A DNA stretch of 34,839 bases from Acidobacteriota bacterium. GTDB taxonomy: Bacteria; Acidobacteriota; Terriglobia; Acidiferrales; UBA7541. The notes under the pieces were generated by a model. That model was not told where the DNA came from. It was given only the letters and a program-made list of their open reading frames with translations, and made no database searches. This document shows, in pieces, positions 3,146-24,645 of this stretch (its first letter is position 1; the number at the start of each line of letters is the position of its first letter). The stretch is taken from assembly GCA_003224235.1 (NCBI GenBank), contig QHYU01000075.1, positions 1 to 34,839 on the forward strand. Direction: 5' to 3'. A program made the translations under genes and the position numbers.

Positions 3146-4255
3146 ATGCATTCAAACCAGGCACTTTCGCGTCGCAGCTTTTTGGCAGCCACCTCTTGTT
3201 TCGGCGCCGCCGTCGCTTTCGCCAAATTGCTTCCACTCCCGGCTCTTGGCGAAGACCTCGCGCAGGACTCACGCATCGCCCAAACACCGCTGGTGGACAA
3301 AGGCTTCGCCTCCGTCCGCAAGATGGGCAACGGCGTTTACGCCACCATCTCCGATTTCTCCAAGGGCGCCCAAACCATCTGCAACGGCGGCTTCCTCATC
3401 GGCCGCGACGCTGCCCTGCTCATCGAAGGCTTCGCTTCGCCTGCCGGCGCCGGATTCCAAATGGACACCCTGCGCACCCTCAGCCAAGTGCCCGTTCGCG
3501 CCGCCCTCGACACGCACTATCACTTCGATCATTCTCTCGGCAACGCCTTCTACGGCGCGCAGAACATTCCCGTCTGGGCCCATGCCCGCGTCGCGCCCCG
3601 CATCATCGAAAGCTACGTTCCTCTTCAGGGCATGGAGCGCGATAAAGCCCTTGCGCCCTTCGAGAAGCGCCTCCAGAGCGCCAAGAACGATACAGAACGC
3701 CAGCGCGCTCAGTCCGACGTCAACGCCGCCACTGCTGTTTGGTCGCTTGCCAACGGCACTGTTCTGGCCCTTCCCAACCACCCGCTCGACCCCGGGAAGC
3801 TCCCCGTGACGATTGATCTCGGCGGCGTCTCCGCTGTCCTCGATACCTACCCAGGCCACTCCGGCACTGACGTCATCGCCCGTGTCCCCGACCAGAACAT
3901 CGTCTTTACCGGCGACTTGCTCTTCAACGCCTGGTATCCGGTCACCTTCGACGCCTCCATTTCCGCCTGGCGCGCGACGCTAGGCAAGTTCGCTGCGTTC
4001 GACAAAGACACTCTCTTCGTTCCCGGTCACGGCCAGCTCTGCGGTCAGGAAGGCATTGCGCTGTCGCGCTCGGTCTTCGACGACCTCGCCGAGCACGCGG
4101 AGAAAATGTACAAGGCCGGCGTACCCGTCGAGGAAGCTGTCCAGCGATACGCCGTCCCCGAAAAATTCAAGAATTTTCCGATTTTTGCCTGGGGCTTTAC
4201 CGTTGGCCCCACCATCGCCAAGCTCTACGAGGAATGGAAAGGTGGGCGCCCGTAG
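3146..4255 (+). CDS. Tat-exported MBL-fold metallo-hydrolase
   Basis: Predicted periplasmic binuclear-metal hydrolase of the metallo-beta-lactamase fold; substrate unknown. Residues 8-13 (SRRSFL) are a twin-arginine export motif, followed by a hydrophobic stretch to about residue 35. The HxHxDH metal site is HYHFDH (His124, His126, Asp128, His129). Further ligands are His238 (GHSGTD), Asp257 (FTGDLLF) and His295 (PGHGQ). The overall arrangement resembles SoxH/quinoprotein-relay-type MBL proteins rather than true beta-lactamases. At 369 aa it has an MBL core plus a helical insertion (about 150-200) and a C-terminal helical tail. The ATG at 3146 follows AAGGGGG 6 nt upstream. It stands alone between the long intergenic region and the repeat block. 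Confidence 0.88.
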   Translation: MHSNQALSRRSFLAATSCFGAAVAFAKLLPLPALGEDLAQDSRIAQTPLVDKGFASVRKMGNGVYATISDFSKGAQTICNGGFLIGRDAALLIEGFASPAGAGFQMDTLRTLSQVPVRAALDTHYHFDHSLGNAFYGAQNIPVWAHARVAPRIIESYVPLQGMERDKALAPFEKRLQSAKNDTERQRAQSDVNAATAVWSLANGTVLALPNHPLDPGKLPVTIDLGGVSAVLDTYPGHSGTDVIARVPDQNIVFTGDLLFNAWYPVTFDASISAWRATLGKFAAFDKDTLFVPGHGQLCGQEGIALSRSVFDDLAEHAEKMYKAGVPVEEAVQRYAVPEKFKNFPIFAWGFTVGPTIAKLYEEWKGGRP

Positions 4256-22228: not shown

Positions 22229-23776
22229 TCATGCGGTCTCGGGAGCTTTCTGCGTTACGGCTCGCTGGAGTTGGCTGAGCAGGTCTTGCTGCCAGGGCTG
22301 CTCCTTGCGCAGAAGAAGCTCCGCATGCGCGCGGAGACGTATCTCCTCCTCTCGGGTCAAGTCTTTACTGGTCAGAATGAAAACGGGAAGATCGGCGGTT
22401 CGCGGGCTGGCCCGCCATTCTGCCAGTAGCTCGAAGCCGCTTACCCTCGGCAGCAACAAGTCCAGAATCACCAGTTCGGGCAAGGAAGTCGCTACCTGGG
22501 CGCGGGCCTCGGCACCATCGGCAGCGGTGGCCACCGCGTAGCCTTGCTCGGTGAGCAATTCGGTGATGATTTCGCGGGTGGGCGTATCGTCTTCGATCAC
22601 CAGGATGGGCCGCTTGGGTGGCGCGCCGCCTCTCCGAACCAGGCAGCGCTGGACCGCGGCCAGAAGCGTGGACCGCTGCACCGGCTTGACCAGGTATTCG
22701 TCAGCACCGAGCGCCGCGCCCATGCCGGGATGATCCACGATCGTCACCACGATGATGGGAACGCTCGCGGTGCGCGCGTCATTCTTCAATTGCAGCAGAA
22801 CCTCCCAACCGTTGGCCGGCTTCATCAGCAGGTCCACGGTGATTGCGTCGGGCTGGAGCTCCGCCACGATCTCCGCGGCACGGTCAGGCTGATTACACAA
22901 CACCACCTCGTAGCCGGAAGCGGTAAGATGCGTCTGGATAAGCTGTCCCGCCACCGGGTCATCCTCAATCACAAGAACCCGCGGCGGCTCCTCCGACTTT
23001 GCACCGGCCTCGCTGATTCGGGGGCTGGCTTGTCGCAGAACCGTGGCAGCAGGCAAGGAGAAAAAGAAGCAACTTCCCTGGCCCGGTTGGCTCTGGAGGC
23101 CGAGCTGGCCGCCCTGCAATTCGACCAGGCGCCGGGTGATAGCCAAGCCCAGGCCCGTACCTTCCGTGGCCTCACCGGATTGCGAGAAACGGTAGAAGGC
23201 GTCAAAGATACGCTTTTGCTCTTCGGGGGGAATTCCCGGCCCGGTATCGTGCACCTCCACTCGGACTTGGCCGTCCGTCTTGTGAGCTACCAATTCGATG
23301 CGGCCGCCTGCGGGAGAGAATTTGATGGCGTTGCCAACCAAGTTCATGAGCACCTGCTTGAATCGCGTGGAGTCGGCGCGGATGGCGAGCCCCGTTGCGG
23401 CAAATTGAGATAGAGTTTGCGATTTTTTCTCCGCCAGCGACCGCAGCGTGCTGGTCACTTCCGCAAAAGCTGTCGGAACGAGCACATTTTCGATGGCCAG
23501 CTCCAAGCGGCCGGCCTCGATTTTGGAAAGGTCGAGGATGTCGTTGATCAGATTGAGCAAGTGCTGTCCACCATTGTGGATGTGGCTGACGTAGCGAGCT
23601 TGGCGCTCGTTCAGCGTGCCGTAACGTTCCTCGGCCAATAGGGCGGAAAAGCCCAGGACCGAGTTAAGCGGCGTGCGCAATTCGTGGCTCATCGTGGAGA
23701 GGAACTGATCCTTGAAGCGGCTGGCGCGCTCGGCTTCTTCTTTCGCTCGCACCAGGGCCTTGTTTGCCTTTCTCAC
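22229..23776 (-). CDS. Soluble hybrid histidine kinase with two receiver domains
   Basis: Sensor-kinase output half, 515 aa from the GTG at 23776. A coiled linker (KANKALVRAKEEAERASRFK) leads into the HisKA domain with the phospho-His in TMSHELRTPLNSVLGFS. The ATPase domain follows with N-box NLVGNAIKFS, G1 DTGPGIPPEE and G2 GTGLGLAI. REC1 contains VIEDD, phospho-Asp in ITVDLLM and Lys in YLVKPV. REC2 contains VIEDD, ILDLLLPRVSG, ILTSKD and a late Lys. There is no membrane segment or DNA-binding domain. The start GTG overlaps the stop of the upstream membrane gene as GTGA. The longer open frame from 23917 runs antiphase through that gene and is not credible. Confidence 0.88.
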   Translation of the reverse strand: MRKANKALVRAKEEAERASRFKDQFLSTMSHELRTPLNSVLGFSALLAEERYGTLNERQARYVSHIHNGGQHLLNLINDILDLSKIEAGRLELAIENVLVPTAFAEVTSTLRSLAEKKSQTLSQFAATGLAIRADSTRFKQVLMNLVGNAIKFSPAGGRIELVAHKTDGQVRVEVHDTGPGIPPEEQKRIFDAFYRFSQSGEATEGTGLGLAITRRLVELQGGQLGLQSQPGQGSCFFFSLPAATVLRQASPRISEAGAKSEEPPRVLVIEDDPVAGQLIQTHLTASGYEVVLCNQPDRAAEIVAELQPDAITVDLLMKPANGWEVLLQLKNDARTASVPIIVVTIVDHPGMGAALGADEYLVKPVQRSTLLAAVQRCLVRRGGAPPKRPILVIEDDTPTREIITELLTEQGYAVATAADGAEARAQVATSLPELVILDLLLPRVSGFELLAEWRASPRTADLPVFILTSKDLTREEEIRLRAHAELLLRKEQPWQQDLLSQLQRAVTQKAPETA

Positions 23777-24099
23777 GTCTTGGGGACGGAGGCGAAAGCT
23801 GTAATCGCCTTCAAGACTCCTGCGAGCCAATAGGCCCCGTGCCAAAGGTTCCAAACCTCCATGGCATGAGTGGCTCCGCAGGCCATGATGAAGACCCCGA
23901 AACACAGGAACATCCAATCGAATGGCAGGTCGCGTCTTTTGCGCACGAAATGGACCAGGGTAATCGGAATCGACATGTAGGCCAGCGTAATCAGCAGGTC
24001 AGAGATGACGTGCAACCACACCAGCCCGGGATTCCAGTGGTAGGAGTACCCGTGAGGCATGAACTCGCCGGAAGAAAAAAGATGCCTCAAGAATTCCAC
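23773..24099 (-). CDS. Ethylene-receptor-type membrane sensor domain (stand-alone)
   Basis: A 108-aa protein with three transmembrane helices, matching the ethylene-binding domain of plant ETR1 and cyanobacterial relatives. The helix motifs are WLHVISDLLITLAYMSIP, DWMFLCFGVFIMACGATH and YWLAGVLKAITAFASVP. Asp34, Tyr41, Ile44, Pro45, Cys74 and His78 have exactly the spacing of ETR1 Asp25, Tyr32, Ile35, Pro36, Cys65 and His69; Cys65 and His69 bind the Cu(I) that holds ethylene. The GTG at 24099 follows a strong AGGAGG with 6 nt spacing. It ends right after helix 3, where family members normally run on into a linker and kinase. The kinase is the next gene in another frame, with a GTGA overlap. 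Confidence 0.88.
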   Translation of the reverse strand: MEFLRHLFSSGEFMPHGYSYHWNPGLVWLHVISDLLITLAYMSIPITLVHFVRKRRDLPFDWMFLCFGVFIMACGATHAMEVWNLWHGAYWLAGVLKAITAFASVPKT

Positions 24100-24645
24100 G
24101 GTTAACCTCCTGTCGGCCTCAGCGTGCTACCTCGACGGAGCCGACACGAGACGGCACGAAAACCGACTGCCCTTCTGCCGACGAACCCTGCGAGAATGGC
24201 CCCGACATATGCTTAATCAGGAGGGAGGATCGCTCTTAGGCTTTCGGCAGGTCACCTCCCAAGTGGTTAACGTCGCTTGCTTTACCGAGCGACCGCGGTC
24301 TCCAACAGCAATCTGAAGCAACATCGGCCACAAATAGGCGGCTCTTCGATTTGAAGCCCGGTGGTGGGCGCAGTAGGTAGCTGTGAATTTGCTCAGTATA
24401 AGCAGCAAGAATGCGTTTTCGCCCCAAGATGCGCGCGTGGTCATAAAAAGCAAGCTAGCCGGTGTCCGGCGGACAGGGAATTTGGCGGCTGCCCATAACA
24501 AAGTAGTGTCTTCACTCCCGATTAATATTTCTGCCCTTTCTGCTCGACCCAATTTGATTGAACGAATCTGTTGCGATTTTCGCCGGGGCGAAACGATGCC
24601 TGATGATTTGCGCAAACAAACTACCGAAGCGAAAGAGAGCCGATG
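24100..24645. other. Intergenic region upstream of the sensor operon
   Basis: About 545 bp without a recognised gene. Open frames on both strands (up to about 130 codons on the minus strand) show no domain, and codon patterns look non-coding. It should hold the promoter of the ethylene-type sensor operon, but no good hexamer pair was identified. Confidence 0.5.

Follow-up and report, generated by a model that had tools for sequence, protein, structure and literature searches.

A locus on the minus strand of an Acidobacteriota contig (QHYU01000075.1) is best read as a recently broken bacterial ethylene-receptor-type hybrid kinase and not as a working receptor. With a probability of about 0.87, it represents a one-chain receptor which was broken by a single frame-breaking deletion, either in the organism or in the assembly. 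The window, which is the whole stretch of DNA analysed, has a length of 34,839 nucleotides and belongs to a draft genome of 237 contigs. The locus adds an ethylene-receptor-type hybrid kinase, with an ethylene-binding domain (EBD) followed by a histidine kinase and two receivers (EBD-HK-REC-REC), to the set known from soil bacteria.

Organization of the locus and its domains

The locus is composed of two open reading frames (ORFs) and three short sequence features:

24106..24111, minus strand: Shine-Dalgarno sequence AGGAGG, 6 nt ahead of the GTG of the EBD ORF, read from the sequence
24099..23773, minus strand: EBD ORF, 108 aa, GTG start, ETR1-type ethylene-binding domain
23781..23788, minus strand: putative deletion scar CGTCCCCA, where the matches in the EBD frame (ASV-P) and in the linker frame (R-P-Q-D) overlap
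23773..23776, minus strand: GTGA overlap, formed by a GTG of the kinase frame and the stop of the EBD ORF
22229..23776, minus strand: kinase ORF, 515 codons, HisKA, HATPase_c, REC and REC

Both ORFs and their shared GTGA were found exactly as the original prediction described them. The TGA stop of the EBD ORF (23775-23773) overlaps the GTG of the kinase frame (23776-23774), and the kinase is read in the -1 frame with respect to the EBD. EBD and kinase therefore do not form one chain, as they lie in different frames with a TGA between them. A perfect and strong Shine-Dalgarno sequence precedes the EBD ORF; inspection of the 20 nt upstream of the kinase GTG revealed no purine-rich Shine-Dalgarno sequence. 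When the source genome was searched for an intact copy elsewhere, this was the only EBD place in it.

The Pfam profile ETR1_N matched the EBD ORF with an E-value of 1.9e-37 and 127.8 bits (cut-off 27), and the match covers profile positions 2-81 of 97. The seven residues which bind ethylene and copper, a set reportedly going back to Wang et al. in 2006, are all present in the ORF (D34, Y41, I44, P45, I71, C74 and H78). As had been claimed, D34, C74 and H78 correspond to D25, C65 and H69 of ETR1 at identical spacing, and the other four binding residues accompany them. The prediction of a three-helix EBD holds for the ETR1_N match and the key residues, but the domain is incomplete. Helices 1 and 2 are complete, helix 3 breaks off behind 'TAFASV', and the match lacks the profile's last 16 columns. 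The AlphaFold2 model of the EBD ORF (mean pLDDT 67, moderate confidence) contains helices 25-53 and 60-85, and a third helix which spans only 89-103. The aligned single-chain homologues keep a complete helix 3. The locus was filed as a damaged descendant of the receptor family because a complete helix 3 and a single chain were both looked for and neither was found. A search with the EBD sequence against solved structures returned none similar.

Novel residues in the EBD were no more numerous than in its homologues, and only the replacement C19S was unusual. Position 19 (window 24043-24045) is occupied by serine in the window and by cysteine in 23 of 24 homologues, where it forms part of a PHGxCYLW motif. 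The kinase ORF possesses HisKA, HATPase_c and two Response_reg domains by Pfam with intact catalytic motifs, as in a hybrid histidine kinase with two receivers, and its branch length is ordinary. No further stop or frameshift was found in either half. This speaks against the deletion; if the locus is a pseudogene, the absence of further decay indicates that it is a young one.

The junction between the two frames

In the aligned single-chain homologues, ASV is followed by the rest of helix 3 (for example PTAILLVHLMPQALALP) and then by a cytosolic linker, for instance RPEELRRANEAL. The linkers were compared in 22 segments, one of them from a pseudogene (G008), with the linker motif P-x-x-[LVMW]. 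Counted from the residue that follows ASV, the linker proline lies at a distance of 18 codons in all single-chain homologues which were written out in codons, except where this proline is replaced. In the window both positions fall on the same place, but out of frame by one base, which indicates a missing stretch of about 55 nt, a length not divisible by three. The sequence CCCCA (perhaps CGTCCCCA) fits both sides of the junction, as would be expected from a deletion between short direct repeats.

The kinase frame, when read through the GTG, gives LRPQD-VRKANKAL-VRAKEEAERASRFKDQFL. The peptide LRPQDVRKANKALV extends to five residues upstream of the GTG. It fits a profile of EBD-receptor linkers better than any other peptide of this frame and ranks 6th among the 50,614 peptides from all six frames of the window. 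Similarity to the kinase paralogues and other relatives begins only at about xALxxAKEEAER (ALVRAKEEAER in the window), after the linker-like peptide. From the linker-profile match and this later onset of kinase homology, VRKANK and the residues before it are most plausibly the end of the EBD module.

The ancestor would have been one chain with an EBD, a short coiled linker, HisKA, HATPase and two REC domains. The two frames most likely arose through one out-of-frame deletion of about 55 nt, which probably took place between short direct repeats of at least CCCCA. It would have removed the later half of helix 3 together with the membrane-exit segment and left kinase and EBD in different frames. 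Translation from the strong Shine-Dalgarno sequence would then produce a 108-aa EBD fragment with a helix 3 of 15-16 residues. The kinase product would be weak or none, soluble and without a sensor. Ethylene signalling through the broken gene is most likely lost. What the sequences show are the two frames, the lost end of helix 3, a linker-like beginning of the kinase frame and homologues in one chain; the single event and its size are inferred, and no undeleted allele was seen.

The original prediction had named a frameshift in a fused receptor as one of two possibilities. This part is strongly supported, but the lesion appears to be a deletion of about 55 nt and not one extra base. The accompanying suggestion that a linker domain had been lost did not hold: the deletion would have removed the end of helix 3 and not a PAS or GAF domain. 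Single-chain EBD-HK homologues without PAS or GAF exist (G006, 383 aa, and G735, 401 aa), so the lack of such a domain is not in itself a lesion.

The lesion is probably in the organism rather than only in the assembly. A metagenome-type assembly error, with the receptor intact in the organism, is the doubtful sub-case of the deletion reading. It would fit a draft genome in this number of contigs and the undecayed state of both halves outside the junction, but the local repeat of only 5-8 nt is below any usual assembly word, and the remaining long ORFs of the contig are intact. Another reading, a programmed -1 shift of the ribosome in the CCCC run by which a fused protein would be made, agrees with the -1 position of the kinase frame and with the CCCCA run just ahead of the stop. 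It is nevertheless extremely improbable, as neither an X-XXY-YYZ slippery heptamer nor a Shine-Dalgarno-like stimulator at the usual distance could be read from the sequence, the product would still be without the 18 codons of helix 3 and the exit segment, and such frameshifting was seen in no relative.

The GTGA overlap is real, but chance alone leads one to expect it after such a frameshift. In a frame displaced in this way, a TGA stop necessarily coincides with an NTG codon, followed by A, in the other frame. In a simulation of this displacement in eight genes of the window, the first stop overlapped ATG, GTG or TTG in 49% of cases. At this chance frequency, and with no Shine-Dalgarno sequence for the kinase, the GTGA does not indicate an evolved gene pair. 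In general, a start/stop overlap alone is no evidence for an evolved two-gene system.

Distribution of EBD homologues

A class-wide search recovered 55 EBD places in 52 genomes, and 51 of the 55 belong to open frames with a length of 301 aa or more. The inspected loci mostly run on into PAS and/or kinase. The four short places are that of the window itself and those of G008, G098 and G029; in G029 the frame diverges behind helix 3, at a distance of 87 nt from the end of the contig. No second intact pair of split EBD and kinase was found in about 1,000 genome searches, nor among the 55 class places, the phylum loci and the nine plasmid loci read, and a two-gene arrangement of the sensor kinase conserved in more than one species was not observed.

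The claim of a new split arrangement is not supported, since the EBD homologues encode one chain across the junction. This is the observation which the original prediction had named as its refutation, and it was made for EBD homologues and not for a strict orthologue: an undeleted EBD-HK-REC-REC gene of exactly the type of the locus was not found in the genomes searched. The sister species G001, the only other genus member examined (80% complete), showed no EBD, and a synteny search in it gave no match for the neighbouring NAD-binding gene. Searches for standalone EBDs in phages and for EBD receptors of Acidobacteria in the literature also gave no match.

A functional split receptor, in which a 108-aa membrane EBD and a soluble kinase would be translated through GTGA coupling and signal by association, is considered very improbable. 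Both ORFs are intact, the binding residues and kinase motifs are kept and the start/stop overlap is present. In AzoEtr1, too, the receptor gene and that of its response regulator share a start/stop overlap (PMC11819568), so that coupling does occur beside receptors of this kind. Against these points, helix 3 retains only about 15 residues, the N-terminus of the kinase is a receptor linker, the kinase has no Shine-Dalgarno sequence of its own beside an overlap which arises by chance in about half of the cases, and the searches gave no second intact example. A young split, in which the 108-aa fragment would bind ethylene and act in trans on the soluble hybrid kinase via the GTGA coupling, is very improbable. 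A functional split would be a test of whether ethylene binding can be passed on from one protein to another.

Lesions of different kinds were observed in other EBD genes. In G008, a related receptor gene (C184, near 34780-35150; L045 / L009) carries in-frame stops and frameshifts and is clearly a multi-lesion pseudogene. G098 (C262; L061 1297-2004) has a 235-aa ORF in which EBD and linker are in frame with a tail that is receiver-like by eye, and from its sequence it has apparently undergone a large internal deletion. The plasmid search returned 19 records; among the nine loci read, seven are long open frames and two adjoin a transposase. The plasmids pMB01 (L102, NZ_CP071718.1) and pMB03 (L103, NZ_CP071720.1) of Acaryochloris sp. 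'Moss Beach' carry ethylene-receptor-type genes which lose their frame near the same point after a GAF-like region, beyond about position 3880 of each. At the frame loss an IS1 transposase adjoins on pMB03 and, by eye, a transposase-like coding sequence on pMB01. Such receptors can thus suffer damage, represented by the deletion proposed here, the pseudogene and internal deletion in relatives and the transposases beside two cyanobacterial plasmid copies.

Relation to known receptors and to kinase paralogues

AzoEtr1 of Azospirillum brasilense and SynEtr1 of Synechocystis share with the locus an N-terminal three-helix EBD, the seven binding residues and a histidine kinase output. Both are single chains with a complete helix 3, whereas the locus has a break inside helix 3 and two receivers after the kinase. 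AzoEtr1 is 525 aa long with a PAS domain, and the seven ethylene-binding residues are conserved in it (PMC11819568). The plant ETR1 family resembles the locus in ETR1_N and in the identically spaced residues equivalent to D25, C65 and H69. In contrast to plant ETR1, the locus has no GAF domain, its frame is broken and a bacterial-type PHGxCYLW segment, with Ser for Cys, stands before helix 1. The EBD-HK receptors of G006 and G735, from the same bacterial group, have in common with the locus a short coiled linker between EBD and kinase (LPRPEELRRANEAL in G006), but their chain is continuous with the full 18-codon segment and has no receivers.

All 13 kinase relatives inspected, two of them from the same genome, possess an N-terminal extension of 120-733 residues, and none begins at the kinase. 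The source genome (G000) encodes two kinase paralogues, on contigs C163 and C75, which are 79% and 81% identical. They resemble the locus in kinase and receivers (about 80% identity) and differ in being single chains with other N-terminal sensors, by eye CHASE3-PAS-PAS and CHASE8-HAMP. Such close paralogues indicate that module shuffling happens, and an identical fused gene was not found elsewhere; both points would suit an EBD gene and a truncated kinase gene which were never fused and were joined by chance recombination in the source genome. This origin is very unlikely, as the kinase ORF starts with an EBD-type linker in its own frame, just as a former single chain of EBD, linker and kinase would have left it.

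In the three HK-REC-REC paralogues of the source genome (window 22229-23776, L049 and L050), the receivers appear by eye far closer to one another than the kinase regions do, a pattern suggestive of gene conversion or a recent exchange of modules.
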